Shown one piece after another: positions 147 through 52,747 of a stretch of 54,115 bases of DNA; position 1 is the first letter of the stretch, and each line of letters opens with the position of its first letter. Under the pieces are notes generated by a model that saw only the letters and a program-made list of their open reading frames with translations, had not been told where the DNA came from and ran no database searches. A program made the position numbers and the translations under genes. This DNA comes from a virus, in the IMG/VR virus record IMGVR_UViG_3300027833_001621, positions 1-54,115 of that record. One strand, written 5' to 3'.

Positions 147-596
147 TTAGGTGTTGGAATGTTTTGCCTTGATATGATGTTCTAGCAATGCCTGTTTGAG
201 TTTGTCTGACCCGCCTACTCTAACATTAATGATACCGTTGTAGTAATCATCTGTTTCAAGTACTCGCCTGTCAAACTGCTCTCGTGCCTCTATGTAGGAC
301 ATTTCGCCCCTACCTTTACATAGGTATAGTATTTCTCTTGTGAAGTGTTTTTCGCCTAGTGCCTGTACGTCTGCGTTTAGTCTGTCTGAACTACCATAAT
401 AAGTTTTCCAGTCTGACTCTTTATAGCCTCGTCTTTTATTTTTTCTGCCTTTAAGTGGTGGCTTAGTGGTTTTAAATTTTGCTAGTTTTTTGCCTACGTA
501 CTTTTGTCCAGTTTTCTTATTTGTGATTAGGTAAACAAAGCCTTCATACTCATCTGGAATACTATCTACTTTTTTACCTTTATAAGTCCACTGCAT
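147..596 (-). CDS. GIY-YIG-like endonuclease family protein
   Basis: Predicted 149-residue protein with a GIY-YIG-like N-terminus: the segment FVYLITNKKTGQKYVGKK (about residues 20-37) has the two-strand pattern of GIY-YIG nucleases, with VYL in place of GIY and YVG in place of YIG. A YYGSS segment follows, and a conserved-looking stretch around residues 95-110 (SYIEAREQ) holds a glutamate that could be the metal ligand. The middle is rich in Lys and Arg, which suits DNA binding. Many such small proteins in T4-like phages are free-standing homing or Seg-like nucleases, but some have lost activity. It is the last gene of the minus-strand operon and starts 7 bases after the stop of the 70-residue gene. 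No DNA-binding helix-turn-helix or zinc domain is visible, so the target and the activity are uncertain. Confidence 0.6.
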   Translation of the reverse strand: MQWTYKGKKVDSIPDEYEGFVYLITNKKTGQKYVGKKLAKFKTTKPPLKGRKNKRRGYKESDWKTYYGSSDRLNADVQALGEKHFTREILYLCKGRGEMSYIEAREQFDRRVLETDDYYNGIINVRVGGSDKLKQALLEHHIKAKHSNT

Positions 597-603
597 GAAG
601 TAC

Positions 604-816
604 TTATTGTTTGCCTTGTTTTTCTGCCTGCTTCTTGGCTTGATACGTTTCGTGTATCTCGTCCATTCTTAATTTAGATAACTTTCTTATTTTTCGTAAC
701 CAGCTGCGACTTGACATATGTGTACGATGAGATTTACGTTTCTCAAATGCTTCGTTTGCCTTAAAATATTCTAAGTATGCCTTAGTCAATTGATCATGAA
801 TATCGTCTTCAATCAT
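604..816 (-). CDS. Small basic hypothetical protein
   Basis: I do not recognise this 70-residue protein. It is highly charged, with an acidic N-terminus (MIEDDIHDQL) followed by a basic centre (RSWLRKIRKLSKLR, about residues 37-50) and a Lys/Gln-rich tail. It is probably largely alpha-helical, with no Cys, no signal peptide and no membrane segment. Its ATG (816-814) overlaps the end of hemC by 8 bases, so it is translated as part of the gp47-gp46-hem operon and may be translationally coupled to hemC. Small basic helical proteins of this kind are common fillers of T4-like early operons. There is no sequence basis for linking it to tetrapyrrole chemistry beyond its position. Confidence 0.6.
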   Translation of the reverse strand: MIEDDIHDQLTKAYLEYFKANEAFEKRKSHRTHMSSRSWLRKIRKLSKLRMDEIHETYQAKKQAEKQGKQ

Positions 817-1552
817 AATATACAGCCTCTAACTTTATAGGATTGTCGCCACTTGCATAACCTGCAACTTTTGTAGTACAATCTCCGCCTATGCCTTTTA
901 ATAATGCTCTTTCTAATTTTGCTTGCCTGTATGTTAGATCGTGATTTATTTCTTTGATTATATCACTGGACATAAGTCCTTTAACAGTTTGCAATGCAAT
1001 TATACCTTGTCCTACAGCTGGCACAATCGACAATCTAGTATATTCTCTATCAATGCCAAGTGCTTGAAGTCCAGCTTCTGCTAGTATTATAGCATCATAA
1101 TCGCCGTTGTCAAGTTTTTCTAGTCTAGTATCTATATTTCCTCTAATAGGTTTAATAACAACATTTAGATTAGAATATAATTCTTCTAGCTGTGCTTTGC
1201 GTCTTGGGCTACTAGTGCCTAACACACAGCCGTCAAACACATTACCTAATAATACATCGTGTGGGCTGTTACGTTCTAGTACCGCACTAATTTCTAATAG
1301 CGGGTGTTCAACATCGCCCGGCATATCTTTTAAACTATGTACAGCAACGTCAATAGTACCATTTAATAATTCTTGCTCTAGTGCATTACAAAATACACCT
1401 TTGCCTCCTATTTCATGTATAGGCACATCAGGATTTAAATCTCCTGCACTTTTAATAACAACTATTTCTGTATCACAAGAAAGTTCATTGCATACTCGTT
1501 CTGCATATGCTAATGCAAGTTTACTTCCTCTTACGCCTACACGAACAATCAT
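809..1552 (-). CDS. hemC: Hydroxymethylbilane synthase (porphobilinogen deaminase), C-terminally short
   Basis: HemC polymerises four porphobilinogen units into hydroxymethylbilane, using a covalently bound dipyrromethane cofactor. Family motifs are clear: RGSKLALAYAE at the N-terminus, the catalytic-Asp motif HSLKDMP, the substrate-binding arginines in GTSSPRRKAQL and IRGNIDTRL, and GGDC near the end, whose Cys (about residue 225) should carry the cofactor. I chose the ATG at 1552 because GAGGTGG lies just upstream and the ATG overlaps the hemF stop as ATGA; an in-frame GTG two codons earlier is less likely. The product is about 247 residues against roughly 300-313 for bacterial enzymes. It ends only about 20 residues after the cofactor Cys, so most of domain 3 after the cofactor loop is missing. 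The frame ends in a clean TGA overlapping the next gene, so this looks like a settled short form rather than a recent break. Activity is likely but unproven. Confidence 0.93.
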   Translation of the reverse strand: MIVRVGVRGSKLALAYAERVCNELSCDTEIVVIKSAGDLNPDVPIHEIGGKGVFCNALEQELLNGTIDVAVHSLKDMPGDVEHPLLEISAVLERNSPHDVLLGNVFDGCVLGTSSPRRKAQLEELYSNLNVVIKPIRGNIDTRLEKLDNGDYDAIILAEAGLQALGIDREYTRLSIVPAVGQGIIALQTVKGLMSSDIIKEINHDLTYRQAKLERALLKGIGGDCTTKVAGYASGDNPIKLEAVYYD

Positions 1553-2334
1553 GACCACCTCACAGTTGGAGGTAAACTCATTAGTATAGCATCCATGTTG
1601 CCTCCGGTCTTAAAACCAAAGCGTGTTCCGCGATCATAAAGTAAATTAAACTCTACATAGCGTCCACGTTTAATTTGTAAAGTATCTCTTTCAGATTGTG
1701 TATAATCTTTATCTAATGTAGGAGTAACAATGCTTTTAATTAAATCATTAAATGTTTTACCTACATCTTTTACAAAGTCAAAGTTCATTTCTTTAGGATC
1801 ATAATATTCAAAAAATATTCCACCAACACCTCTAGTTTCTTCTCGGTGTGGCAAATAAAAATACTCGTCACATGCTTTACTAAACTTAGAATAGTAGTCG
1901 GGATTGTAGTAGTCGCATATGTTTTTTAATTTTTTATGATAAGAATCTTTATCAAACGGCATACACGGTGTAATATCCATCCCACCACCAAACCATTCCT
2001 TGGTACTTGTTTTCATATAACGAGTATTAAAATGCATTGCCGGTGCGTGTGGGTTCCACGGATGTAGTACAACACTTATACCCGTTGCACTATATCCGTT
2101 GTGTTCTTCTGTTCCTGGTATCTCTTTAGCAAACTTAGGATCAAACTCACTAACAATTTTGCTAAAGTTAACAGTTCCTTTTTCGAATACATCACCGTAA
2201 ATAGTTCGGTGTTCTTGTATCCATCCAGGTTTATTTGATCCTGTATGACTTATCATATCGCAATCTAAATTTTCAATAGTTTCGCATATTTCATTTTGAA
2301 GGTTTTTAAACCATTGACTTGCTTCATCAAACAT
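1549..2334 (-). CDS. hemF: Oxygen-dependent coproporphyrinogen III oxidase
   Basis: HemF oxidatively decarboxylates two propionates of coproporphyrinogen III to give protoporphyrinogen IX, using O2 and no metal. The 261-residue product carries nearly every family signature in order: FEKGTVNFS, GISVVLHPWNPHAPAMHFN, WFGGGMDITP, YLPHREETRGVGGIFFEYY, GRYVEFNLLYDRGTRFGFKT and a C-terminal SLPPTVRW. The conserved His, Asp and Arg residues of these blocks are present, and the length is only a little below the usual 290-300 residues, with trimming at the N-terminus. It starts at an ATG whose first base is the last base of the hemE stop (TAATG), and its own stop overlaps the hemC start (ATGA). The O2-dependent form fits a phage of an aerobic surface-water host. 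No signal or membrane segment; a cytosolic homodimer is expected from the family. Confidence 0.97.
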   Translation of the reverse strand: MFDEASQWFKNLQNEICETIENLDCDMISHTGSNKPGWIQEHRTIYGDVFEKGTVNFSKIVSEFDPKFAKEIPGTEEHNGYSATGISVVLHPWNPHAPAMHFNTRYMKTSTKEWFGGGMDITPCMPFDKDSYHKKLKNICDYYNPDYYSKFSKACDEYFYLPHREETRGVGGIFFEYYDPKEMNFDFVKDVGKTFNDLIKSIVTPTLDKDYTQSERDTLQIKRGRYVEFNLLYDRGTRFGFKTGGNMDAILMSLPPTVRWS

Positions 2335-3314
2335 TAATTAAATCGATTCCTAATTGTTTCAACAAAATGTGTTACATGTTCTGTTGGTGTAGTTTTTGTA
2401 ATGCCGTGTCCTAAGCCACACACCCAACCAGTAGTGTTAACACCTTCTAATGTTTCTAGCCATTTGTCAAGTTCGTACTCAAACAATTTACGTTCTAACA
2501 ACATGTGAGCTTCATTAAAATTACCTTGCACAAATCCATTAGTGTATGTGTTTAATGTTTTAGGTAAGTCAAGTGTACTATCAATGCCAATGCCTGACCA
2601 GTTCATCTTTTTTACTTTAGACAAACTATTAGTTGGAAGTCCTCGAGTATAGTATCCTACATTGCCAATATCTGTAATAGATTGTAACATTGGCAAGTAT
2701 ATGTTATCATGATAATTTTTACTAATGTTTTCTAAGCCGCTATCAAGTATCATAACAACTTCAGCCCCTGCTAATTTTTGTGCTCTAATACTATCTTTTA
2801 TTAGTGGAATTATTACTGTTCTAAGATATGTAGATTTAAAATCATTGCTTACTTTGTTAGGCCCAAGTGCATAGTTAAGTAAACTCCAAGGTCCGCCAAC
2901 AAATCCAATTAAACTTTTACTATGAGGAAGTGCTTCTCTTGTTGCTTCAACAGCATTGCTCTGAAAATTGATATGTTTGAGCGCACGACCAACATCGACA
3001 TACTGTTCCCAGTTTTCTTCGCTAAGGTGTGTTTCAAATTTAGGACCTGGGTCAAACTTTAATGGAAACCCTAATCCTTCTAAGTGCCATAGTATATCAC
3101 TAAACAATATAGCAATATCAAAATCAAATTGTTTAATAGGTAGCATAGCAACTTCGCTTGCTAGTTTTGGTAATTTACACATTTGTTCAAATGTAAATTT
3201 TTCTTTCATGTCCATATACCCTGATTGGTATCTGCCTGCTTGTCGCATCATCCAAATTGGCGGACATTTTTGTTCAACTCTATTTAAAGCGTTTTCAAAT
3301 TTTATGTTTGTCAT
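2334..3314 (-). CDS. hemE: Uroporphyrinogen decarboxylase
   Basis: HemE removes the four acetate carboxyls of uroporphyrinogen III to give coproporphyrinogen III. The diagnostic N-terminal motif PPIWMMRQAGRYQ (about residues 18-30) contains the substrate-binding Arg residues, ILFSDILW carries the essential active-site Asp, and GFVGGPWSLLNYAL and the C-terminal GLGHGI match conserved family blocks. At 326 residues it is slightly shorter than bacterial enzymes (about 340-355). The ATG overlaps the gp46 stop as ATGA, and its stop overlaps the hemF start as TAATG, so it is translationally coupled on both sides. No key residue appears to be lost. Function is assigned from the motifs; a role in infection is inferred. 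Confidence 0.97.
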   Translation of the reverse strand: MTNIKFENALNRVEQKCPPIWMMRQAGRYQSGYMDMKEKFTFEQMCKLPKLASEVAMLPIKQFDFDIAILFSDILWHLEGLGFPLKFDPGPKFETHLSEENWEQYVDVGRALKHINFQSNAVEATREALPHSKSLIGFVGGPWSLLNYALGPNKVSNDFKSTYLRTVIIPLIKDSIRAQKLAGAEVVMILDSGLENISKNYHDNIYLPMLQSITDIGNVGYYTRGLPTNSLSKVKKMNWSGIGIDSTLDLPKTLNTYTNGFVQGNFNEAHMLLERKLFEYELDKWLETLEGVNTTGWVCGLGHGITKTTPTEHVTHFVETIRNRFN

Positions 3315-5083
3315 TCTATAATATCGATATCATTCTCGTAACTTGTAAATCCATTTTCTTTGATAACTTTCATAACGTGATTAACACGCCCTACTAATTC
3401 ATCTTTGTGCGAGATAAGGTAAACATTCTTGTCGCCTTCTCTACCCATCTTTTTAAGAACACTTAGAGAATTTTCAACACCTGCGGTATCCATACCACTG
3501 TCAATAAGCTCGTCAATAAACATCAAGTTAATCTTTTGATATAAACTCTCCCATACATCTCTAAATGCAAAGCTCATACCAAGTATAAGCCTGTTGCGCT
3601 CGCCTCTTGATAAGTTATCAAAATCTAAATCTTGACCAAGTTGCGTAATTTCAACAGCTAAATCATTTAAGAAAACAACTTGATGCGGTAATCCTAGTTT
3701 ATCTAAGTAATAAGTAAGTCTATTGTTTAGATACGCCAAGTTCTGATCAATGATCTTCTTTCTAATGAAGCTATCTTTATTAGTTAGCAATTTTAACAAG
3801 AAATCTTGATGTTCTTTAAATTCGGTTAAGGCATTTACAGGTGTCCAGTCAATTTCTTGTATTGCAGACTCTTGTAGTTCATCAATTTGTGACTGATAAG
3901 GATCAGTTTCGTCCTTCTTTGCTTCCCATGCTTGCTTCAGACTATCAACATTTTGTCTATGATCGTATGCTTCTTTAGCTGTTTCATAAAATGTAGTAGG
4001 CTTGCCATTGATGTCGCCTATTGTAGTTAGTGCATTTAATACTTCAGATCTCTTTGTATCAACCTCAGATGCATATGTTATTGCATCTTCTAATTCTTTG
4101 TCTTTACGACCTGCAATCTCTGCTTTTTTGTCTGCATGTAACTCTTGTCCGCATGTATAACACGTTGCATCATCAAGATCTAAGATGTCTTTTTGTGCTT
4201 TTTCTACAGACTTGGTAGCACGTAGTAGTGCTGGTTCTAATGTGCTTAATTCTTTTTTAAGAGCCAAAATAGCATTGTTATGTTCAGACCAATTTGACAA
4301 CTTTTCATGCAATTCAAGTTCATTTTCAATGTCTAAATGCTCTAATTCGGCGATTGCATCTTTTAACTTCATTGTATCAGTAGTGCGTTTAGATAGCCAT
4401 GCTTTTTGATTGCTTTGTAAACTACTAATAGTAGTTTCGATCTTACTATTTGCACTTTGAATAGCATTAATCTTTAATGTTTCTTCTGTAATAGAATCCT
4501 TAGTTTGTTTAGTTTGTTCTTTTAGTGCATCGGCCTTTTCGCTAAGGATAGTAATACCAAGTAACTGTTCGATAATAGCACGTTGATCGTTTTGCCGCAT
4601 ACTCAAGAACGGTTCTGTGTATGTGTTTAGTGCAACGATATGCTTGAACATGTCATGACTCATATCTAATAAGTCGTTAATGTATTCTTGTGTCTTACGA
4701 CTATCGCCTTGCGACTCGTCTGTCATCTCTTGTTCTTGATCGTTCACATAAAACTTTAATAAGTTAGGTCCGCGACCACGTTCAACTCTATAATCTACAT
4801 TATTCTTTTCAAAGTGTAATGTAACCAACATGCCTTTACTGTTAGTTTTATTAATTAAGTTGTTAGCTCTGATGTTTGTAAGAGCTTTGCCGTACAACGC
4901 ATACGATAGTGCATTAATAATAGTAGTCTTGCCTGTGCCGTTACGTGATCCGCTATCGTCCCCGCCTTGGTCTAAGTTTTCGCCGAGTACAAGTGTTAGT
5001 TGTTGCTGATTAAAGTCAACAGCTTGGGTTTGATTGCCCACACTCATAAAGTTTCGTACTGTGAGGTCTTTAATTTTTATCAT
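3311..5083 (-). CDS. gp46: Recombination endonuclease subunit gp46 (SbcC/Rad50 family ATPase)
   Basis: This is the ATPase half of the T4-type gp46/gp47 complex, which resects DNA ends for recombination-dependent replication and helps degrade host DNA. The 590-residue protein has the Rad50/SbcC layout: Walker A GSRNGTGKT at 45-53, a long coiled-coil region on both sides of a zinc-hook CYTC near residue 308, the ABC signature LSRGERNR near 488 and Walker B LMFIDE near 520, followed by a conserved ISHKDE-like switch His near the C-terminus. Length matches T4 gp46 (about 560). Its ATG overlaps the gp47 stop (ATGA), as expected for a stoichiometric complex, and its own stop overlaps hemE. It should be expressed early from the sigma70-like promoter upstream of gp47. 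Confidence 0.96.
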   Translation of the reverse strand: MIKIKDLTVRNFMSVGNQTQAVDFNQQQLTLVLGENLDQGGDDSGSRNGTGKTTIINALSYALYGKALTNIRANNLINKTNSKGMLVTLHFEKNNVDYRVERGRGPNLLKFYVNDQEQEMTDESQGDSRKTQEYINDLLDMSHDMFKHIVALNTYTEPFLSMRQNDQRAIIEQLLGITILSEKADALKEQTKQTKDSITEETLKINAIQSANSKIETTISSLQSNQKAWLSKRTTDTMKLKDAIAELEHLDIENELELHEKLSNWSEHNNAILALKKELSTLEPALLRATKSVEKAQKDILDLDDATCYTCGQELHADKKAEIAGRKDKELEDAITYASEVDTKRSEVLNALTTIGDINGKPTTFYETAKEAYDHRQNVDSLKQAWEAKKDETDPYQSQIDELQESAIQEIDWTPVNALTEFKEHQDFLLKLLTNKDSFIRKKIIDQNLAYLNNRLTYYLDKLGLPHQVVFLNDLAVEITQLGQDLDFDNLSRGERNRLILGMSFAFRDVWESLYQKINLMFIDELIDSGMDTAGVENSLSVLKKMGREGDKNVYLISHKDELVGRVNHVMKVIKENGFTSYENDIDIIE

Positions 5084-6090
5084 AGTTCGTTGTAAATGTC
5101 CAATAGCATCTTCTTATTGAAGTTGTCTGAGTCGATTGCGGCAATTTCACCAGCAACAATTTGATCGACACTTTCAAATTGTTGAATATCTAGTTCTGTA
5201 CTAATTTCTTCTAATTGTTTTTGTGGAATTAAACTAATTTCACGACACTTGTATTGATTAATAAAAGTTTCTTTAATAAAACTTGCTTCTTCATAGCTAA
5301 TAGGTAAGTCTAAATTAACACGCAAGTACATATTAGGCTTAATAAACGAATCTGCTTCGTCTATTAGTCTACTAAGTTTAACTGTACGGTATTTAGGACA
5401 ATCTGGCCAGTCGAGGTACACAGGTTCTGCATTATTTTCTCTATCAAGTATCATCATACCACGTTCGTCATCCCATGCATCTGCATAGTTGTGCGGAAAT
5501 GCATTACCTAAGTAATGTACTACACCTTGTTGCTGACGTTTGTGGAAGTGTCCGCTAAAAACATAAGACTGATTAGCAAAGTCTTCTGCTCTAAGCTCTC
5601 CGTGATCAGGCATTTGCACCATAGCGTTCATATAGAAGCTAGGTAGTTCAAAGTGTCCAAACACATACTTGCTTTTTAGCTTGCGTAGTTTCTTCCACTC
5701 GTCTCCTACAAGCCAAGGTACAATAGTTACGTCTTCAATTGTAGTAATTTCGTCTACAAATGTAATACCTGGAATGTGTTTTGCAAATGCTGTACTATTA
5801 ACATCACGCTTGTCTTTGTAATACAAGTCATGGTTACCGTCAAAGAAGAAAAACTGCTCAAAAGCAGCCCCTAACTTTTCCATACTACGGATTGTTGCAT
5901 CCATAGTTGTAAGATTCAAACTGTTTCTGTTGTGATGCCAGTCTCCGCAGAAAATACCAGTTTCACAACCGGCAGCTTTTGCTTGATCTATGTACCAATC
6001 AATAAAGTCTTCACAGTCTTGATTGTGTACTTTACTATTGCCTTTTAGACCAAAGTGGATGTCAGTAAAGACAGCTGCTTTCTTAAACAA
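5080..6090 (-). CDS. gp47: Recombination endonuclease subunit gp47 (SbcD/Mre11 family phosphoesterase)
   Basis: The nuclease half of the gp46/gp47 complex. The five metallophosphoesterase motifs are visible: TDIHFG (D10, H12), GDWHH (D50), DGNHD (N86, H87), FGHFE (H146) and SGHFH (H181, H183), which together bind two metal ions, normally Mn. At 336 residues it matches T4 gp47 (about 340). The reading frame opens with TTG at 6090-6088: an in-frame TAG lies two codons upstream, and GGAG sits about 8 bases before the TTG, so TTG is the likely start. A rare start codon at the head of the operon could moderate expression. It lies directly downstream of a sigma70-like promoter whose -35 box overlaps the gp55 stop codon. 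Confidence 0.96.
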   Translation of the reverse strand: MFKKAAVFTDIHFGLKGNSKVHNQDCEDFIDWYIDQAKAAGCETGIFCGDWHHNRNSLNLTTMDATIRSMEKLGAAFEQFFFFDGNHDLYYKDKRDVNSTAFAKHIPGITFVDEITTIEDVTIVPWLVGDEWKKLRKLKSKYVFGHFELPSFYMNAMVQMPDHGELRAEDFANQSYVFSGHFHKRQQQGVVHYLGNAFPHNYADAWDDERGMMILDRENNAEPVYLDWPDCPKYRTVKLSRLIDEADSFIKPNMYLRVNLDLPISYEEASFIKETFINQYKCREISLIPQKQLEEISTELDIQQFESVDQIVAGEIAAIDSDNFNKKMLLDIYNEL

Positions 6091-6118: not shown

Positions 6119-6147
6119 ATAATACACTTGATTCAACAAGATGTCAA
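6119..6147 (-). promoter_or_regulatory. Sigma70-like promoter for gp47-gp46-hemEFC
   Basis: On the minus strand TTGACA (6147-6142) is followed by exactly 17 bases and TATTAT (6124-6119), 11 of 12 consensus bases at ideal spacing. The -35 box overlaps the TGA of gp55. The start of transcription would fall near 6112, leaving a short leader with a GGAG ribosome binding site. This looks like an early promoter read by host RNA polymerase. Confidence 0.85.
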
Positions 6148-6992
6148 GTAGTTTTGGCGTTTTTAACTTTTTCAGCAATATCATGCTCTCTTTTTTGAGC
6201 TGCTTCCCATTCTGCGTTATGTTGTCTAGTATAACTAGGATTCATATCGTTCATTTCAAGAATATCGTCTCTAATGTTTTGATTGCGCTTTTCTAAGTTA
6301 ATAACACGTACAAAACTATTAGTAACTGCCGCTGTATAATAAGCAAATGGATTGTTTGACTTTGATTCGTCAAACTGTAAGCCAATTTGTGCTAACTGTA
6401 GGATTGCTTGGCCGCGCATTTCATCATTGTAAGTGTATCCACGTACATTGCCTCTTGTTGCATACCTTTCGCACAGTTTAATCCACATCATAGCAAGTTT
6501 GTCAGTTGCTTTAGCATGTTTCATACTAAAGTTGCCGTTTTCCATACCACCTTGCCAGTGACTTTTACCAACACAATGTAATTCGCCTTCTTCGTCAAAC
6601 TTATAATGTTGAAACGGTGGAAAATTTAACTTCACTCTAGTATCTGCTACTGTTTTAGGATTCTTTTTGCGTCCTGGTTCTTCCGGAATGTGATCAAATG
6701 TCATAATACGAAAGATTATTTCTTCTTTTGTAATTTTTTTGTAGTCTACTTCGCATTGCGCCTGCTTAACCTTTTCGCCTGCCATCTTACGTTCAGCATA
6801 ATCAGCATCGCCTAGACGTTTTGCTTTGTTACGTTTAGCTTCTGCAATGGTTCTGATGTTAATTTTGTCAATATCGGGCAAAATAATATCAAATTGGTTA
6901 AAGTCGTTGTCTACAAAACTAGAAAACCTTGATTTTGATTTGTGTATCTCTTTTAAAAGATCTTTGTTGTTTAAGTAATTTACTTTTCTCAT
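6144..6992 (-). CDS. gp55: gp55-type sigma factor for late transcription
   Basis: T4 gp55 is a minimal sigma factor that directs host RNA polymerase to TATAAATA late promoters together with the gp45 clamp. The N-terminus NYLNNKDLLKEI parallels the NNKELL start of T4 gp55. The C-terminal half, with GYTYNDEMRGQAILQLAQIG and NNPFAYYTAAVTNSFVRVIN, resembles sigma region 2 of the family. I chose the ATG at 6992 because GGAGA precedes it; an upstream ATG 17 codons earlier adds residues unlike the family and has no good ribosome binding site. At about 282 residues it is roughly 100 longer than T4 gp55 (185). The extra sequence, residues 40-150 and rich in Lys/Glu, sits between the N-terminal motif and the sigma core. 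Late-promoter octamers in the adjacent structural block support the assignment. Confidence 0.85.
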   Translation of the reverse strand: MRKVNYLNNKDLLKEIHKSKSRFSSFVDNDFNQFDIILPDIDKINIRTIAEAKRNKAKRLGDADYAERKMAGEKVKQAQCEVDYKKITKEEIIFRIMTFDHIPEEPGRKKNPKTVADTRVKLNFPPFQHYKFDEEGELHCVGKSHWQGGMENGNFSMKHAKATDKLAMMWIKLCERYATRGNVRGYTYNDEMRGQAILQLAQIGLQFDESKSNNPFAYYTAAVTNSFVRVINLEKRNQNIRDDILEMNDMNPSYTRQHNAEWEAAQKREHDIAEKVKNAKTT

Positions 6993-7014
6993 ATTTTCTC
7001 CAGTGATTATATAT

Positions 7015-7043
7015 ATTATAATATACTCTGTTAATAAAGTCAA
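7015..7043 (-). promoter_or_regulatory. Sigma70-like promoter for gp55
   Basis: On the minus strand TTGACT (7043-7038), a 17-base spacer, then TATAAT (7020-7015): 11 of 12 consensus bases. It lies 23 bases before the gp55 ATG, with GGAGA between. It shares the short divergent intergenic region with the first structural gene on the plus strand. Confidence 0.85.
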
Positions 7044-15500: not shown

Positions 15501-16100
15501 GGTGCAGAGTTAAACAAAATTAAATCATTAACAGATGAAATTATATATCATCCAGTTAAGTATAAAATACTATTCGGTAATGAAGCGGATCAAGAATTGA
15601 AAGCTAAATTTAAAATTGTAAAGAACGCTAACAAAGTATTAAACGATAACGACATTAAGACAAAAGTAATTACAGCAATTAATCAATTTTTTGCTTTAGA
15701 CAATTGGGACTTTGGTGAAACATTTTACTTCTCTGAATTATCAGGATACGTAATTAACGAACTTGCTCCTGACGTGTCGTCATTTATTCTTATACCAGTA
15801 CAAGAAGATCAAAATTTTGGTAGCTTGTATGAAATCAAATCAGAAGCAGACGAAATTTTTATAAGTGGTGCTAGTGTAGACGATGTTGAAATTATTGATG
15901 CTATTACAGCTTCAAGATTAAAAGCATCAGGAAATGTTGTAACAAAATCTACAACAATAAATGCTGGAATACAAAGTTCAGCATTTACTGATACATCGAC
16001 CCCTATTAATACAACAACTTCTACAACTTCTACACCAAGTAGTTCGAGTAGTTCAAGTAGTTCATCAGGCAGTTCAAGTAACGGAGGATATAGTTACTAA
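12531..16100 (+). CDS. gp6: Baseplate wedge protein gp6, enlarged
   Basis: The N-terminal 120 residues are typical gp6 (baseplate J-like): YLRENYPEDFNDYVESSEYL, ALIDLIAFLGQNISYRIDLN and ARENYLELAERRESVLRLAR. In T4 gp6 forms the inner ring that ties wedges together and transmits the contraction signal. The C-terminal third contains a gp6-like helical and beta part (about 1030-1110: FKIVKNANKVLNDNDIKTKV, ALDNWDFGETFYFSEL). At 1,189 residues it is nearly twice T4 gp6 (660), the gain lying in the beta-rich middle. The last 25 residues are a Ser-rich run with Gly, encoded by imperfect AGTTCA-type repeats (about 16035-16085). The stop shares one base with the next start (TAATG). Confidence 0.88.
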   Translation: MSSTDRQNRLLLAEDWKRVYQSFRNADFQSYDFDNLRRTMVQYLRENYPEDFNDYVESSEYLALIDLIAFLGQNISYRIDLNARENYLELAERRESVLRLARLLSYNPKRNQPANGLLKIQNIRTSEEVRDSNNVNLQGQTITWNDPANSDWYEQFIKVMNTALPVNGTFGRPAKKSVISNVDTEQYRFSSTNTDVPTYQFNKNIDGRAVRFEIVSTDITETIKEEAPFPGNNFAMLYRDDGKGPTSSNTGFFSHFRQGVLDQGIFTINDYASNQAVAIETPQINNSDVWLYSLDSVGNEKELWSKVESLQGNNIIYNSLNKDNRNVYSVLTRVDDRVSLVFSDGVFGNIPTGQFKTYFRTSLNERVIITPKDFRGITITVPYLSKRNKTETLTITYSLQYTVDNSTNSESTASIKQNAPTTYYTQNRMVTGEDYQIAPLGINQQIVKVKSVNRVSSGISRYFDLVDATSKYSKTTLYANDGVVYKETQTKKDGFSFTTRTDVEGAVENTIVPILSDKKIRNYYFDKFNKIITRDLGVNWVQTTKDTNLSTGYFKNIEDVPSTLGKFTGSILSIVKVGSLIKVIAPGYVAKANPADIDTSTNHFNSKGELVNGTVKLLGDTYYKWVKVVRINGTGFEPTDDGAGAVILNDVIPSGAILFEIKPPLANNLESGVKQQIIDQIFSYKTFGLRFDQVAAEWRIVTENNLSLGTGFSTGKTGDVTNQNLDASWLVLFETNGERYTITYRSMRFVFESDNEMRFYYDSSDKIFDNKSGKIVKDTITVLNINTQPDNPAPFTQDFNWEIVDAYRDVDGYVDSKKLEVSYFDDDEDGVVDDADLFEEIVQPETNTTNKYIIFEKVTTADGVEDFNYLPNDNDSIIILNSKTEVAPFSTYNDQQIFYYIDTDVFEILDKSALRLNITADYKARVGRNNLKFRYIHAASSESRIDPSASNIIDMYLLTRNYDNNFRLWLLEQSQTKPLPPSSDQLFIEYGAELNKIKSLTDEIIYHPVKYKILFGNEADQELKAKFKIVKNANKVLNDNDIKTKVITAINQFFALDNWDFGETFYFSELSGYVINELAPDVSSFILIPVQEDQNFGSLYEIKSEADEIFISGASVDDVEIIDAITASRLKASGNVVTKSTTINAGIQSSAFTDTSTPINTTTSTTSTPSSSSSSSSSSGSSSNGGYSY
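16035..16085 (+). repeat. Short AGTTCA/AGTAGT repeat encoding a Ser-rich tail
   Basis: An in-frame low-complexity stretch of AGTTCR and AGTAGT units at the 3-prime end of gp6 encodes a run of serines followed by Gly/Asn. Such tracts change length by slippage and here would alter only the flexible C-terminus. Confidence 0.6.
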
Positions 16101-19100
16101 TGGCATACGACAAAGATCAAAACGAATTTCCACTTCCGGGTGAAGATCCGCAACGCAGACAAAGTGCTAGACATCTGCCTAAATATTTTAGAACAGATAA
16201 AAATCAAAAGTTTTTACAGTCTACATTGGACCAGCTATTACAGCCAGGCGTTTCTGAAAAAGTTAATTCGTTTGTAGGTAGAAAAACTGCAAAAGCATAT
16301 AATGATAAAACTGACAAGTATTTGCAAGATGTTTCTGCTGATAGAACTGACTATCAACTAGAGCCAGTTAGTGTTATTAAAGACGGTTTAGGAAATACAG
16401 AATTTTTAAGAGATTACATGGATTATGTACATCAAATTGAAAACTTTGGCGGCGACAACACTAATCATAGTAGAAACAATAAACAAGAATACTATACTTG
16501 GAACCCAAGTATTAATTGGGATATGTTTTCAAACTTCCGTGAATACTATTGGTTACCCACAGGCCCACAAACAGTAGTTGTTCCTGGAGATGCTAAAGAA
16601 ATTACTAGTACATATACAGTTGAACTACAAAATGCTTTAGGCGATTTATCTTATTTGTTTACTCCTGACGGAGCAACAAACAATCCTACACTAAAGTTAT
16701 ATAGGGGTGTAACGTATAGATTTGAAATTAATGCTGTTGGATCCCCTTTTACATTTAGAACTGCAAGAACACTTGAAGATGAGTTTTTATTAACTACCGA
16801 AGTGTCGCAACAAGGTGTAGAAGACGGTGTTATAGAATTAACATTAGGACCAGGCACACCAAACGAAATTTATTATGTTGCTGACAATGACATTAATATG
16901 GGCGGCCTAATTAGAGTTGCTAACCAATCAGAAGCAAGTATAATTGATGTAGAAGCAGAGATCATCGGTAAAAAATATTATACTACTAAAGATAACTGGA
17001 GTTTAACTAACGGATTAAAAGTACGTTTTGCAGGAGAAGTATTACCTGCAAAATATTCAAACTCAGAATGGTATGTTGAAGGCGTTGGAGACAAAATAAC
17101 TCTTGTAAGTGACATTGATGTTGAAGTTAGTTTTCCAGTTGGTATTGATTTGTTAGTACCATTTGATGATACTATTGACGGATTTGATGCACTCCCTTTC
17201 GGCGCAGCAACAGGTTACCCAAGAGATAAAGATTATATTACAATTAACCGTGCAAGTCCAGACGGTAACTTTTGGTCAAGATATAATAGATGGTATCATA
17301 GAGAAGTAATAGAATTATCTGCAAAAATTAATAATCTAGTTCTTGATATTGATCAAGCACAACGTGCTAACAGGCCCATTATACAATTTGATGCGGGTTT
17401 AAAATTATATAACTTTGGTACAAAAACAAAACCAGTAGTTGACTTACTTGACAACTTTACTACAGATGCATTTAGTACAATTGAAGGTAGTACAGGCTAC
17501 AATATTGATAGTGTTCAACTTGCAGAAGGAATGAGAGTATTATTCCTTAATGACACAGATCCTTTAGTTAACGGTAGAATCTTTGAAGTTAAATTTATTA
17601 ACTTTGCTGGAAGTGGTGTCAACGGACAAATTAGTTTAGTTGAAACAGAAGATAGTTTACCTGTTGAAAGTCAAACTGTTTTAATTACTAGAGGTGAAGA
17701 CTTTGCAGGTACAATGTGGTATTACGATAGTGTCACCTGGAATAAAGCACAAGAAAAAACAGCAGTAAACCAACCACCAGTTTTTGATATTTTTGATGCA
17801 AACGGAAAAAGCTATTCAGATACAACAGTTTATCCTGCATCTAACTTTAGAGGTACAAAGCTCTTTAGTTATAAAGAAGGACAAGGTGTAAATGATACAG
17901 TATTAGGTTTTCCAATTTCTTATAGAAGTATTGAAAATGTAGGCGATATTGTTTTTAACTTTAATTTTAATCAAGATACTACACAATATCAAATTGACGA
18001 TCAAACATATAATATAAATGTTAGTAATGGTTATCTAAGAAAGTATTTGCTATCTAGCAATTATCTATTAGTAGGTGCATATGTTAAAGCAAGTACATTT
18101 AGTAATCAAGATGTAGTATTGCAATATGTTAATGACGGTACAAAGATTAACTATCCAATTAATAGTTATAACAAAAGTGCATTTGTAGAAGATTTAAAAG
18201 TTAATGTAACTGTTGATAATAAAGTTGTATACGAAAATACTGATTATGAAATAGTTTCCACAGCAGACAAAGTAAAGTCGATTAGATTTTTAAATAAGAT
18301 TTCAGAAAATGCAAACATTATAATTAAAACAACATCTGCTACGTCTAAGAATGAAAATGGTTTTTATGAAATTGCTCCAAACTTAGAAAAAAATCCGCTA
18401 AATGCTGATGTTGAAACATTTACATTAGGTGAAGTTACTGATCATGTTAACAGTATTACACAAAATGCTCCAGACTTTGTTGGAGTATTCCCTGGAGTTA
18501 GTAATTTAAGAGATTTGACTAATTTAAGTGTTTATGGTAGAAAGTTTATTAAACATTCTGCTCCGTTAAACCTTGCAATGTTTTCTACATTAGATAAAGA
18601 GTCTAATGTAATTAAATCATTAAGATTTGCTAAAAAAGAATATAGTAAATTTAAAAGAATGTTTTTAGAAAATGCAGAAGTGTTACCGTTTAGTGGATCA
18701 ATAAAACAGCATGTAGATGCAATAATTTCTGAGATTACTAAAGATAAAATTAATACAATGCCTTTCTACTTTTCGGATATGATAGGCTATGGCGCATCTA
18801 TTACAACTACTATAACAATTGAAGATATTGGTACTAGGTTCTATGCACTTACAACACCGTTTGTTTTAAACGAATTAAGTACACGTTCTGTAACAGTATA
18901 TTTAAACGGCACACAGTTATTACACAATCAAGATTATGTCTTTAACACTGAAGGTTATTTAGATGTTACAGCAACTAAACAATTTGGCGACATATTAGAA
19001 ATTAACGAGTATGAAACTACAAATGGAACATATATACCGTCAACTCCAACTAAGTTAGGTTTATTTCCTAAGTACATTCCAGAATTATTCCAGGACGATA

Positions 19101-22100
19101 CATATGGTTCTGCACCAATGATGCTTAGAGGACACGATGGTAGTATAACAAAAGCATTTGGTGATTACAGAGACGACTTAGTTTTAGATTTAGAAAAAAG
19201 AATCTTTAATAATATTAAAACAGAATACGATACTACAATATTTGATATCAACGATTATCTTCCTAACACTTTTAGAAATACACAGTTTTCTAGAGTAGAC
19301 GTATATCAACCAATGATTACAGATTTTATTCAATGGTTAGAATTAATTGACGAAGATTATACTGTTCAAAAATATTATGATAGAGTAGATTCTTATTCTT
19401 GGAATTATTCAAATATGAATTCGCCTACAGGTGAGCGTTTGCCAGGATGGTGGAGAGGTGTATATAGGCAACTCTTTGACACAGATCGTCCGCATACTAA
19501 TCCTTGGGAAATGTTAGGCTTTACAATTAAACCTACATGGTGGGAAGCACAATATGGTCCTGCTCCATATACTAACGAAAACTTATTATTATGGGAAGAT
19601 TTACAAGCAGGTATTATTAGATCTGCAACAACAAATTTTTCAATTAACAAAAAATATGCTCGTCCAGGGCTATTAAACTTTATACCTGTAGATAGTAACG
19701 GTAACTTATTAAGTCCTTCAGATTCAAATGCTGTACAGCGTTTTGCGTCAGTTGGATTAGATGCTCCATTTAAGTTTGGTGACAATTCACCTATTGAAAA
19801 TGTATGGAGACAAAGTTCTGATTTTCCTTTCGCATTACTAACAAGTTGGATGATTAACTCACCAAGTTCATTACTAGCAACAGGATTTGATAGATCAAGA
19901 CAAATTAGAAATACACTAGGGCATATAGTTTATAAGCCTACAATGAAACATTTAACACTTGCTGACTTAGTGTTTCCGAATACTTCAAAAGAAGAAACAC
20001 AAGTATTAACATCTGGCATAGTAAATTATGTTGCTGCATATATGGCTAGTAGCGTAACAGCAAGTTATAGCAATTATGTTCGTAGATTAAAATCTATAAA
20101 AAATTGTTTAGCATTTAAGTTAGGCGGATTTACTGATAAATCTAAATTTAAATTAATTCTAGAATCCAGAACTCCGTTAAACAGCGGCAATGTGTTTATT
20201 CCAGAAGAAAATTATAATATATTATTGCACACTAGTTCTCCAATAAAAACAGTTAACTATAGCGGTGTTATTATAGAAAAACGTTCTACTGGGTTTGTTG
20301 TAAGAGGATACAACAAAGAAAATCCAGTATTTAAATGGTATCAGCCCTTTAGTTCAAATAAAGACGTTAATATAAACATTGGCGGAATATCAGAATCTTT
20401 TAGTAGCTGGGATGCCGGTAAGGTATATGTTAAAGGAAAAAATGTTCAATACTTAAACAATTTTTATACAGTATTAGAAACTCATACAGCAACAAGTGTT
20501 TTTGAAACAGCTAAGTTTGCAAAACTTCCTTCGTTGCCTACAGTTGGCGGCGCAGACGCAATATTTAAAGAACGCTTTAATAAATTTGATACACAAGTTT
20601 TATCTTATGGATCTAATCTAAATACAATACAAGATGTTGTAGACTTTTTACTAGGTTACGAACAGTGGTTGAAGGATCAAGGATTTAGATTTGAATACTA
20701 CGATGGTGACGAAAAAGTACTTTCAGATTGGAAAAATAGTTGTAGAGAGTTTATGTTTTGGAGTACACAAAACTGGAGCGAAGGAGCACTTATTGCACTA
20801 AGTCCAGTTGCTGACGAAATAAACTTTGAAACTGAATATTCAACAGTTGATAATATATTTGATAACTTTTATGGATATAGTTTATTAAAATCAGACGGTA
20901 CAAAGTTTGCAGAAGAGTTTACAAGAATAAGTAGACAAGAACCAAATAAATTTAAAATACGTCCTAGAAAAACTGGTGACGGTGTTTATGCTGTACAAAT
21001 ACCAATAATAAGAAAAGAACATATTGTATTATTAGATAATACAACAGTATTTGGTGATGTAATATATCAACCACCTACAGGTTACCGTCAAGATAGAATA
21101 CGTTCATTGGGTTATAGAACTGTAGACTGGGATGGTAGTTTAAACATTCCGGGCTTTATATATGATGAAGCTATTGTAACAGAATGGGAACCTTGGTCAG
21201 ACTACGGCGTTGGTGCATTAATTAAGCATAAACAATTCTATTACAGTTCAAACAATAAAGTAACAGGTACTGAATTATTTGAGTCATCTTCTTGGACACG
21301 ACTTTCTGAAAAACCAGAAAGTAAATTACTTACTAACTTTGAATACAAAACAAATCAGTTTGCAGACTTTTATGATCTTGATACAGATAACTTTGATGTA
21401 GAGCAACAAAAGTATGCACAACATCTAATAGGATATCAAAACAGAGATTACCTAGCAAACATTATTAATGACGATGTAAGTCAGTATAAATTCTATCAAG
21501 GAATGATTAAGGAAAAAGGTACATTAAACAGTCTTAATAAATTGTTTGATGTTCTTAGTGAAGCTGATAAAGAAAGTATTGACTTTTATGAAGAATGGGC
21601 AATTAAACAAAGTCAGTATGGAGCGAGTGAAGGATTTGACGAAGTTGAATTTAAATTAGACGAGGGTAAAATTAGAAATAATCCACAACCGTTTATACTT
21701 ACTAATAACATTACAGGCGAAGAAACCGATTTAATTTATAGAATATCTGATTTCCAAGTTTATAAAAAGCCTGCAAAATATAATAATAAGCCGTTCCCTA
21801 CAACTGATGATTTACCACAATTTACAAAGTCCCCGGGTTATACACATATTGAAGATGTGTCGGTTATATTAAGTAAGTACGAAGATCTTGTTTCTACAGA
21901 CTTTGGCAAGATTAAAAGCAATCAATATGTTTGGGTCGGCACCAAGAATGCACAATGGTCAGTATATCAACATGTAAACTCCGGTTATACTATTACAAGT
22001 ATTAAAGGAAACGCTACAGCGGTTAGTGTTGGCGCATCAGATAAAGACCAATTCAAAATTACAATTGATACTTCTGTATCAGATATAAAAGTTGGTGATA

Positions 22101-25100
22101 TTGTTGGAATTTATGATATTATTGAAACTGATTATACTACAGTTGATAGTACATATCCAATAGCAAATCAAACAACAGTAGATGTTGATGGATTTTTTAA
22201 AGTACTTAAAGTTAGTGTAAATGAAATTATTATTGAAACTGATAAAGTAATTTCAGACATTAATCAATGTAGAGGAATCTTAACAAAGTTTAATTCAGTA
22301 AGAGCAGAATCTTATGTACAAGCAAATGCTATTGCACAAGCAGGCATTGAAAAAGATAGCCTACTATGGGTTGATAGTGATGACAGCGGCGATTGGAGAG
22401 TTATTAAAAATAACAAACCGTTTAACTTATTGCAACGTGTCGAAGGCGAAGACAGAGTACCGTTTAATAGTTTCTCAGACAGAATAGCTGTTGATAGTAG
22501 AAACGTTACAATGGCAGTGTCAACACCGTTAAGTGGATCACTAGACGAATCACTTAATCCTGTTGCAGGCGATGGTAAAGTATTTGTTTATACTAGAGGC
22601 GGCAACAATCAAAACTTCCAATTTACACAAATTGTTGATCCGATAACACCATTAGCAGATTTACAAAAAGGATTTGGTAAAGGTCTTGGAATTAGTTCGG
22701 ATGGCAAATACTTAGTTGTTGGTTCGCCAGATAGTTCAAATGTAAAAACTAAATTCAAAGGACTTTATGATTCTACAGTTGATTATCAAAATACAGAAAT
22801 TGTTTCATACAATGATCAATTATGGGAAGCTGTAATTGATATTAATGGTGCTAATTTAGCACAACCGTTTGGTAGCTTTACATCAATGGTTGAAGTATTG
22901 TTGGATAACAATATTACTGGTGGTGAAATACAATTTAACAATTTACTAGCAGGTAATTATCCGTTTACAAATACTGATACAGATCACATATTAGTAAGAG
23001 CTGGCAAAGATCAGTACATAGCAACAGGTCCAGGAGATACTGTTTTCTTAGATTGGTATGCTACTACAACAGCAAACCAAGGACAAGATCCTGCTAATTT
23101 AACTAGAGCTCCGTTTGGAGGAGAATTACCGTCAGTAACTGAAGCGTTCTTAGAAAGCGGATTAGTAGTACAAAAGAAAATTGATGTAGTATTATATATT
23201 GATGCATTTTCAATAATACCAAGTGTAGGTGATCAAGTAGAATCACAAGGTGTATTTGGGTATGTAGAATATGTATATCAAGAAGGCCCGAGCGTTGTAA
23301 TTTATGTAGGCGGTAGTGTAGGACTTTGGCAAGAGACTGAAGCATTGTATTTAGAAACAGGAGAGTTTGTAGGACAATATGTTCGTAACGCTCCTAAGGA
23401 ATTAACACAAGTAGACACTACAGAAGATTTAGGTGGCTATTGGTGGTTTGATCTTCCTGCAACAGTAACAACAACAAATATCGTTGAAGATGAAGGTAGA
23501 GCATTAGCAATTTATAATGTTGTTCCTGCAGGTAAATCGGCAACTATAGCAGCTGGCGGAAATATTTACGATTATAATAATACTGAAATATTTGAAGGCG
23601 ATAATAATATTAACAGTTATATTAGAACATTTACTTCTGAAGGCGAACCAGGAGCATACGGAAACTTTGATGTTATTGAAAGTGACTTGTTTGTAGTCAG
23701 AGCACCTAAAACACTTACTGATATTCTTAGTAATGGTGACGATGTTAACCTATTAGTATTAAATTTACCAAACTTAAATGATCAATCGTATGTTGATATT
23801 ACACCAGCAGGAATAAATTATACTCAAACAAATAAAACCCACACGTTATATGATTTGTGGGACGGATTTATTGAATTTTCTTTAGATGAGCCAGATGACT
23901 TTGGTAATTATTATGAGCCACTAGTTGGACAATTTGTAAGAGATACTACAACAGGCGCAACAGCACAAATTACTTTCTATCAAAGAGATTCTAGAAATGC
24001 AACAATATTTGTTAAAGATGTTCAAGGTTCAAATAACTGGTCATTAGGTAGCGAAAGCGGCGAACCGTCTACTATTGAAATGTTAAGAATACCAACTAAC
24101 CCATCTCCGGTATACAATGTTACAAGAGAATTAGGAAATATTAAAACTACTTCATTAGGTAGTGATAACTTAGGCATAGGTAAACTTTGTGTATTCCAGC
24201 TTGATGCTGAAATTGCTACTGTTCCTGTAAACGATACTATAATAGGTGCAGAATATATTATCTATAAAGATACTACAATTTTAGGATTGCCAACAGATGC
24301 AAATATTCCATCCTCAATAAACTTGGATTGGAAAAATGTATATAGAGTTCCGGTAAATGCTGAAGGCGAAGCGTTAGCGTTAAACAACTATGGTATGTTC
24401 TCTGTGTACATTAGAGAAAACGTAAGTACATTTACTCCACAGGGATCTTTCATTGTTCCTGAGCAAATTGACGGATTGCGTATAGGGTCTAATATTAAAA
24501 TAGCCAAGCGTAACGAGTTGTATAAAGCGTTTATTGGCTGCGAAGGCGATGGAACAGAATCTAATCCAGGAAGAATATACTTTGTAAACAACGGAACAGA
24601 CGAAGAAGGAGTATCATACAACTGGGATCTTGCTAAAGATAAAAGATACAAGGGAGCATTTGGTAATGATAGAGATTACTATTTAAATGACATAGTATTT
24701 AATGATGGCAATTTTTACATTGCACAAACTAATATAGCAAACGGTGATAGCTTTAATATATTAGACTGGCAACTTGCTACTGATGATAAAATTAAAAGTA
24801 TTGATTACATTGGTTACATACCAAATAACACAGATCTTGTTTATAATAATGATTCGTCTTTAAAACTTGATGCAACTGGACTAACATCGTTTGGTAAAGA
24901 TTTTGATATTAGTGATGACGGCGAAGTATTAGTTGTTACAGCAGAGTACACAGACGCTCCTAACAAAGTTATTGTTTATAGAAATGTAAATGACAACTAT
25001 CAAAATTATCAAGAGTTTGAAGCAACACAAGTAAATGACGGTTTTGGCACACAAATAAGTGTAAGTCAAGACGGTTCAATGATTGCAATATCTGCTCCAA

Positions 25101-28100
25101 ATGCTAATACTGTAGATGGTGATGAAAGAGGTACAGTATATGTTTATACTTACAATCCTAAAACTAGTGTAAGAGCATTTGAACTAACACAAACACTAGT
25201 TAGTTCTAATCCAGTTAGAGGCGAAATGTTTGGCGGAAACATTGACTTTGACGGGAACATGTTATATGTAAGTGCATTTGCTGCACCTAGTGATGATGAA
25301 ACATTGTTTGATACTTATCAAGAACGTTTATATCCTGAAAGCATTACAAACGGACAAAAATATTTACTAGATCCTAATTCAGCAGGAACAGCGACAACAA
25401 CATTTGATAACGGGTTTACATCGTTTAAAAATATTATAGCTACAAATGGTGTAGTTTATGCTTATGACAGAATTGAAGATAGTTTAATATTTGGTCAAAC
25501 ACTTGATCTTAATAGTCCTAACATAAGATTCTTTGGTAAAAATATTACAGCTAAGAACAACCATTTGTATGTTGCATTACCTAGTTATGATAATGTAAAC
25601 AGTGATGGCGTGTCTACTAACAAGCCAGGATTAGTGTTAGATTATAGACGTGACGACAGTGCTAAAATATGGGAAACATATAGAGCACCATCTAAACCTG
25701 CTAATTTAGAAAAAATAAAACGTGTAATGTTGTATAACAAAAATAAGAATTCTATTATACAACATTTAGATTACATTGATCCTGTACAAGGCAAAATTGC
25801 AGGCCCAGCTGATCAAGAAATTCGTTACAAGTCTAGTTATGATCCGGCAACTTATGATGTAGGCACATCAGAGCTAGATGTTGACACTACTGAATCATGG
25901 GGAACAAGACAAGTTGGTCGAGTATGGTGGGATCTAACAACAGCTAAATTTGTAAACACATATTTAGATGGTAGTACAACTTATAAAAATAATAACTTTA
26001 ATACATTATTTGAAGGCGCTAGTATTGACATATATGAGTGGGTTGAATCTAAATTAAAACCTGAAGACTGGGATAAGTTATCTTTACAACCAGAGGGAGA
26101 AGCTAAAGGTGTTACTGGTATAACAAAGTACGGACCTGCGGCATATACTCAAAAACGTGTATACGATAGCATAGGAGAAAAATTTACTTCTTATTATTAC
26201 TATTGGGTAAAAAATAAAACAACAGCTCCTGACATTGAAGGCAGAAATATTAGTGTAGCAACTATTGCTAAATTAATTGAAAATCCAAGCGGTGCAGGAT
26301 ATAGATTTATTAGTATATTTGGTGACGATTCTTTTGCTTTACATAACTGTGAATCTTTAATTGAAGATCAGGATACAATACTAAACATTCAATACTGGAC
26401 ATTTAGTAACAAATATGACAACATACACAATCAATACCAAATCTTAGCAGAAGGACTTGATACGAGTAAACCGCATGTAGAAATAGAACAAAAATGGTTT
26501 GATAGTTTAGTAGGGTATGATAAGCAAGTGCGTCCTGTTCCAGACCCTGCATTAGCAGCTAATGAAAGATACGGAGTACTTAACAAGCCAAGACAGTCTT
26601 GGTTTATTAATAAAGTTGAAGCGGTAAAACAATTAGTTGAGCGCACAAATAAAGTTTTAAAAAGTACCTTAGTTACTGATGAAAAAGATATTTCTAAGTT
26701 GCAAGACTTTGATCCTGCACCAAGTTTAATATCACGACATTATGATGTAGCTGTAGATACTGAAGTTGATTTGCAATTTGTAGGTGTTTCTAGATTAATA
26801 CAATCAGAATTACTACCAATTATGCAAGACGGAAAAATTGTACGTGTTGACATTGTTAACTCTGGCAGGGGCTACAAAACAGCACCAACATATACTATTA
26901 CAGGACAAGGAACTGGCGCTGAGTTTGAAGTAGTAATAAACACAGCTGGTCAAATAACAGAAGTAAACATACTTAATTCGGGTTATAACTATAATGAAAA
27001 TACACAAATTAAAGTACGTCCGTTTACAGTTCTAGTAAATGCAGATAGTAATATCAGAGGCAACTGGGCGTTGTATCAAAGAGACTATACAGCTAGGGCC
27101 TGGGATAGAATTAACAGTCAGGCATACGATGTAACCAAATACTGGTACTACTGTGATTGGTATGCAACTGATTATAGTACATTTACTGAAATAGACTATG
27201 TTATTGATCAGAGCTATGGCTTACAAGGACTTGACGATAGCTTTGGCGACATTGTTAAGATTCTAAATGTAGGAACTGATGGATGGTTACTATTAGAAAA
27301 AATTGATAATCAAGATACAACAGACTATACTGTTAACTATAAAACAATTGGTAAACAAAACGGTACAATACAACTAAGTGAAAACTTATATAACTTTGAT
27401 CTAAGTAGAGTTGGTTTTGATACACAAACATTTGACACACAGTTCTTTGATAGTCAACCAATTATAGAAACAAGAATTGTATTAGAAACATTGAGAGATA
27501 GTATTTTAGTTGACGATTTGGCAACAGAGTATAATAAACTATTCTTTGCAAGTTTACGTTATGTATTCACAGAACAAGGATATGTTGACTGGGCATTTAA
27601 AACAAGTTTTGTAAAAGCACAACACAATGTAGGACGTCTAAGTAATCGTGTTACATATAAAAACGATAGCCTCGAAAGCTACGAAAAATATATTAACGAA
27701 GTTAAGCCTTACAAATCTAAAATTAGAGAATATATTTCAGATTATTCAACTCTTGAAAAGTCTGAAAGTGTAGTAAGTGATTTTGATAATCCTCCAAAAT
27801 ACAATAACGATACACAATCAATCGGAGTTAGTGATGTAAGAGTCATTAACGGACTACTAGCAGGATCACTTGATGGCTATGATACATATCCAAATAAGTT
27901 TTGGTTAGATAATGCTTCGTATAATGTTGTTGAAATATCAATTGCAGATACAGGATCAGGTTATTTAAGTGCTCCACAAATTATTATTGAAGGTAATGCA
28001 ACAGCAAAAGCTTCTTTAGGACCAGGTGGCAAACTATCATCGGTTACTATTACTAATTCAGGAAGTGATTACATTATTGCACCGACTGTAACAATTAACG

Positions 28101-52726: not shown

Positions 52727-52741
52727 AAAAGGCTGTATACT
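52713..52741 (+). promoter_or_regulatory. Sigma70-like promoter giving a leaderless mRNA
   Basis: TTGACA (52713-52718), 17 bases, TATACT (52736-52741): 11 of 12 consensus bases. It overlaps the end of radical SAM gene 4. The expected start of transcription, about 7 bases after the -10 box, falls on the A of the ATG at 52748, so the transcript would lack a leader. Confidence 0.75.
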
Positions 52742-52747
52742 ATATAA

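Follow-up and report, generated by a model that had tools for sequence, protein, structure and literature searches.

Three heme-pathway genes, hemE, hemF and hemC, stand together in the gp47-gp46 recombination operon of a virus. They are probably working auxiliary metabolic genes, held in an optional slot of that operon, which would add heme-pathway capacity during infection; the added capacity would most likely lead toward protoporphyrinogen IX. The window, meaning the whole stretch of DNA analysed, is a linear record of 54,115 bases and a fragment of the virus genome.

On the minus strand the genes follow the order late sigma factor, gp47, gp46, hemE, hemF, hemC, orf70 and the segE-like gene (Table 1). 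An earlier, sequence-only reading of this DNA had described the three hem genes as complete, overlapping and real frames, a description that was borne out. All three are complete, with overlaps of 4 nt between gp46 and hemE (3311-3314), 1 nt between hemE and hemF (TAATG) and 4 nt between hemF and hemC (ATGA), given the hemC ATG start at 1552; hemC in turn overlaps orf70 by 8 nt. An independent contig (L002) has the same gene order and encodes proteins 97-100% identical to those of the window. Since the order is the same on this contig and the block gp46-[hem genes]-orf70-segE was found again on contigs from many metagenomes, the locus is not a chimera. Phage genes flank the hem genes on either side in many contigs. 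A PHROGs search returned no family for HemE, HemF or HemC. The counts of promoters and terminators were near chance expectation, and promoter-like sites in the window were overall as many as chance gives. One such site, a perfect TTGACA-16-TATAAT with TG before the second hexamer, lies within hemC at 1113-1086 (-) and faces orf70 and the segE-like gene.

Table 1. Genes of the hem locus in the window.
Gene and product	Position	Strand	Match or remark
segE-like GIY-YIG endonuclease family gene, closes the conserved block	147-596	-	PF19835 1.6e-35
orf70, after the hem genes (or directly after gp46 if the slot is empty)	604-816	-	no Pfam match
hemC, hydroxymethylbilane synthase (porphobilinogen deaminase)	809-1558 (GTG, 249 aa) or 809-1552 (ATG, 247 aa)	-	PF01379 2e-59
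hemF, oxygen-dependent coproporphyrinogen III oxidase, 261 aa	1549-2334	-	PF01218 7.4e-84
hemE, uroporphyrinogen decarboxylase, 326 aa, divergent phage lineage	2334-3314	-	PF01208 2.4e-58
gp46-like recombination endonuclease subunit (SbcC-like), upstream operon gene	3311-5083	-	PF13476
gp47-like recombination nuclease subunit (SbcD-like)	5080-6090	-	PF00149; synteny kept in relatives
late sigma factor, next gene upstream of gp47	6144-7043	-	phrog_12791 1.5e-78

The slot between gp46 and orf70 was surveyed in 75 relatives whose gp46 has 82% identity or more and whose sequence extends far enough downstream, the window being left out of the count. The slot was empty in 45, a state compatible with hem genes elsewhere in the same genome, and held HemC alone in 21, HemE and HemC in 4, HemE-HemF-HemC in 4 and HemE in 1, so that HemC alone was the commonest occupied state (21/30). 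The downstream orf70 was present at all 75 comparable loci. Nine changes of slot state are needed on the gp46 tree, and near-identical gp46 genes were followed by different slots, as in L009 (HemE-HemC) compared with L372 and L373 (all three genes).

The predicted enzymes were compared with curated profiles, active sites and solved structures. HemC scored 232.7 bits against the TIGR00212 equivalog, above the cut-off of 164, and 12 of 13 active-site positions are as in Salmonella, the cofactor cysteine and catalytic aspartate among them. The residues kept (E. coli numbers) are R11, S13, K83, D84, T127, S129, R131, R132, R149, R155, Q198 and C242, of which we take Asp84 to be catalytic, Cys242 to bind the dipyrromethane and the arginines to bind substrate, in accordance with their roles in E. 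coli. At the position of R176 the alignment shows no arginine in the window protein, nor in a fuller-length SAR11-like phage copy (L160). The C-terminal domain is approximately 60 aa shorter than in SAR11 HemC (about 310 aa); PF03900 matched about half of its 74 positions, below cut-off, and a complete C-terminal domain was not found. The model predicted for HemC (pLDDT 88) aligns with solved structures of porphobilinogen deaminase at TM values of 0.80-0.87.

HemF scored 310.7 bits against the NF003727 equivalog, above the cut-off of 297. Truncation was considered, the protein being ~30 aa shorter than the PDB enzymes, yet it was rejected: the C-terminus stops where that of SAR11 HemF does, at LPPxxxW, and the length is that of the nearest cellular kin.

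HemE passed the PF01208 cut-off and scored 188 bits against the TIGR01464 equivalog, below the cut-off of 303. It is about 30% identical to SAR11 HemE and 30-35% identical to the best cellular HemE sampled, and the main clade of phage HemE sits on a very long stem (2.98 changes per site) with no near relative in the tree. Since the equivalog cut-off was missed and the stem is very long, HemE may be a protein of the uroporphyrinogen decarboxylase fold with another substrate, leaving HemC and HemF in heme synthesis. This reading is very improbable in view of the active site, in which the MRQAGRY motif, FSDIL with the catalytic aspartate, the tyrosine of GPW-LLNY, the serine and the histidine of GHGI are present, and R24, R28, D73, Y148, S192 and H303 are invariant across 18 phage sequences. 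The predicted model (pLDDT 90) has uroporphyrinogen decarboxylases as its top PDB matches, with 24 chains of that enzyme ranking ahead of the first methyltransferase. Furthermore, other and more ordinary HemE genes, gained separately according to the tree, occur in the same role in L042, L173, L175 and L176. The gene in L042 (4731-5762), whose product is a full-length bacterial-type HemE (TIGR01464 404 bits), was gained independently in a phage with HemF and HemC of phage type.

The dN/dS ratios, obtained by simple Nei-Gojobori counts, were 0.10-0.16 for HemE, 0.07-0.09 for HemF and 0.15-0.24 for HemC, compared with 0.06-0.10 for gp46. Based on the active sites, predicted folds and dN/dS, all three hem genes are under selection to work. 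General loss of catalytic residues, which would have spoken against the sequence-only reading, was not seen. By most sequence tests the three genes are predicted to be functional, the exceptions being the HemE equivalog score and the HemC C-terminal domain, and we infer that the enzymes would be expressed and catalytically active. Being host-type metabolic genes on a phage genome and under selection, the three are probable phage auxiliary metabolic genes, which would change host metabolism in infection. That they are instead passengers, either host DNA acquired by chance and without phage function or bacterial contamination, is barely credible. The frequent gain and loss at the slot would suit passengers, as would a HemF gene (L169:8001-8780) whose product is 97% identical to that of SAR11 and which may be host contamination or a very recent gain. 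Against this stand the low dN/dS (0.07-0.24) and the strict overlap of the genes; moreover, phage sequences form a clade of their own, separate from the host copies, and the genes recur in independent contigs and different groups of phages.

Judging by its core genes, the window probably derives from a T4-like jumbo myophage, kin to Atu_ph07 and PA5oct. The gp46 protein is 50% identical to that of PA5oct-type jumbo phages and 45-48% identical to those of Atu_ph07 and Phosso; for gp6, the nearest proteins (34-35%) are those of Phosso, SCTP-2 and Atu_ph07. The nearest isolates by these two proteins are jumbo myophages of 286-490 kb, and a contig of a close relative (L349) is 200.8 kb, compared with the 54 kb fragment that is the window. 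These core-gene kin (Atu_ph07, Phosso, PA5oct and SCTP-2) differ from the window in having no match to HemC, HemE or HemF. Among the named phages of INPHARED, matches to HemC, HemE, HemF or HemB were on contigs that look bacterial (Acinetobacter MD-2021a, Salmonella Infantis, Listeria and others) and were rejected; since all of them look bacterial, no isolate with the hem genes was found. In CAKLQH020000003, AFYI01000004 and AFYI01000006, for example, hemF lies between ribA and aroE, and hemC beside hemD and cyaA. Bacterial contigs filed as phages are a trap for automatic claims of phage heme genes.

The phage HemF and HemC clades join SAR11, apart from other Pseudomonadota (SH-aLRT 99), in trees from quick searches without bootstrap that sampled only Pseudomonadota, for which reasons the roots are uncertain. 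In a scan for HemF across 84,980 species, the best 80 matches listed were nearly all from Pelagibacterales. The copies of pelagimyophages fall inside SAR11 as separate gains, the HemC and HemF of the window's group form a clade distinct from the copies in L160-L167, and a freshwater-type HemF group stands apart. Trees had been proposed to place all three proteins; they did so for HemC and HemF, and for HemE no near relative was found in phylum samples of 299 genomes (with a threshold too strict to inform) and 150 genomes. The cyanobacterial setting entertained in the sequence-only reading was not supported, given the grouping of HemC and HemF with SAR11, and no link to cyanobacteria was found. 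For the window phage a host resembling SAR11 is a candidate, although no phage-type HemC copy was present in 297 SAR11-family genomes and the core genes are closest to those of jumbo phages of Agrobacterium, Sinorhizobium and Pseudomonas.

The search of viral databases that had been proposed was productive, yielding 98 viral records with HemB, HemC, HemE or HemF, most of them fragments and some possibly misfiled bacterial DNA, L169 above all. At least two of the enzymes were found in 64 records, at least three in 44 and all four in 12. The gene orders differ (E-F-C, F-C-E-B, F-B-C and F-B), as do the surroundings. The E-F-C order is that of the window's group and others. In L046 (7986-11521) and kin (L047-L051, L053, L137-L140 and L144), four consecutive genes encode HemF-HemC-HemE-HemB (HemB, PF00490 4e-51) and adjoin a PRPP synthetase-like gene; L047, L138 and L144 have 5-aminolevulinate synthase (AlaS) on the same record. 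The F-B-C order occurs in the pelagimyophage-like L160-L167, and L167 has a baseplate protein with 71.5% identity to the one in Mosig, a Pelagibacter phage. Just upstream of HemE in L151 (6723-7094) is a small protein that, by eye, we take to resemble a NifU-type iron-sulfur scaffold.

Among 50 records tested for further pathway enzymes, AlaS was above the curated cut-off in 25 and ferrochelatase in 3. HemD was above cut-off in none of the 50, a result that rests on a single profile for a protein that diverges fast; with the same profile, HemD was recovered from 9 of the 12 cellular genomes examined (those of HemF relatives, 11/12 Pelagibacterales), in several of which hemD is directly beside hemC. 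The sequence-only reading had called the trio three consecutive heme-pathway enzymes, which holds for the adjacent genes but not for the steps, HemD between HemC and HemE being absent. Without HemD, the trio alone does not suffice to take porphobilinogen to coproporphyrinogen III.

Entry into the heme pathway is through AlaS, a regulated step. The enzymes HemC, HemE and HemF are slow and HemD is fast; without HemD, the HemC product cyclises to the type I isomer, which cannot be used. What the phages carry agrees with this list of slow or regulated enzymes, and we infer that phages carry the slow pathway steps and leave out the fast one. In the proposed pathway, phage HemC would convert porphobilinogen to hydroxymethylbilane, which host HemD would close to uroporphyrinogen III; phage HemE would then yield coproporphyrinogen III, and phage HemF with oxygen protoporphyrinogen IX, leaving the last two steps of the host to finish heme. 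The product would presumably be heme for respiratory cytochromes, the likely benefit being that these are kept up while host genes are shut down. The boost in flux that the sequence-only reading had inferred is therewith plausible. The evidence leans slightly toward a broader proposal, that aquatic phages have several times, and from different sources, assembled a mobile set of genes (AlaS, HemB, HemC, HemE and HemF) that leads, nearly complete, from succinyl-CoA and glycine as far as protoporphyrinogen IX, consistently without HemD although hemD adjoins hemC in SAR11. Selection would here keep the slow enzymes, the fast and last steps being those of the host.

Two other roles were weighed against a supply of heme. 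It is distinctly unlikely that imbalance itself suits the phage, with HemC in the absence of HemD draining porphobilinogen into the type I isomer and lowering host heme, or with porphyrins building up and altering the redox state or light sensitivity. The lack of HemD above cut-off in all 50 records and the 21 of 30 occupied slots with HemC alone are in agreement with such a role, as is the accumulation of porphyrins in E. coli in a study of phage 5-aminolevulinate synthase (PMC11480375). However, HemE and HemF, which move intermediates onward, are under purifying selection beside HemC, and the recurrence of AlaS, HemB, HemC, HemE and HemF together fits supply better than blockade. It is also unlikely that the genes serve some other tetrapyrrole or heme turnover, whether bilins, iron release by phage heme oxygenase, siroheme or cobalamin. 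For turnover speak a heme oxygenase gene right after HemF-HemB in L174 and the pairing of alaS with hemO and pcyX in published phages (PMC11480375), whereas no heme oxygenase was noticed within the window. HemF acts below the branch point to siroheme and cobalamin, and therefore its carriage points to protoporphyrinogen and heme. In L174 (7983-10136) HemF, HemB and heme oxygenase are side by side, placing tetrapyrrole making and breaking in one block.

Phage heme-pathway genes as such are known. A 'deep ecotype' group of pelagimyophages was noted to have coproporphyrinogen oxidase and porphobilinogen deaminase (Zaragoza-Solas et al. 2020, PMC7029224), and so shares HemF and HemC with the window; the mention is one sentence with no sequence analysis, and HemE and HemB are not named. 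The window differs from that group in being from a putative jumbo phage with a different cassette and with HemC and HemF in a separate clade, whereas the HemF-HemB-HemC contigs L160-L167 are probably of the same kind as the group. Wegner et al. (2024, PMC11480375) demonstrated activity for a phage 5-aminolevulinate synthase (valaS); pathway and rationale are the same as here, but the gene covers the first step only and is often paired with heme breakdown genes, and no mention of HemB, HemC, HemE or HemF as phage genes was found in that text. Ferrochelatase genes in uncultivated pelagiphages (PMC9599517) are likewise heme-pathway genes in SAR11 phages, although they encode the last step and belong to podoviruses, where they lie next to 2OG-Fe(II) oxygenases and come with no middle enzymes. 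The hemO, pebS and pcyX of cyanophages and pelagiphages are also phage tetrapyrrole genes but consume heme, whereas the window genes make precursors. In the literature searched, with subscription papers and preprints outside the search, no phage HemE or HemB, trio or systematic lack of HemD was found described, and no text on hemF with viral auxiliary genes was found. The sequence-only reading, which knew of no description of such a gene set, was thus too broad for HemF and HemC, AlaS and ferrochelatase, and stands for HemE, HemB and the recurring near-complete set, which were not found described.

With these results, scattered reports of single phage heme genes become a recurring, modular pathway set. 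They pose the testable question of whether phage production in abundant aquatic bacteria is limited by heme synthesis, and not by photosynthesis or nucleotide supply alone. The absence of HemD in one record after another makes a sharp prediction of which steps limit flux, and gain and loss at a single slot among close relatives is a natural experiment.

Two further features of the window lie on the plus strand. A single frame of 5525 aa at 16100-32677 (+), between baseplate and tail genes, has only weak matches to TIG, FG-GAP and carbohydrate-binding domains, and its product is probably a giant virion protein. At 44579-54113 (+) is a run of radical SAM genes with five PF04055 matches, four of them above cut-off and two with SPASM domains, standing among frames of unknown function.
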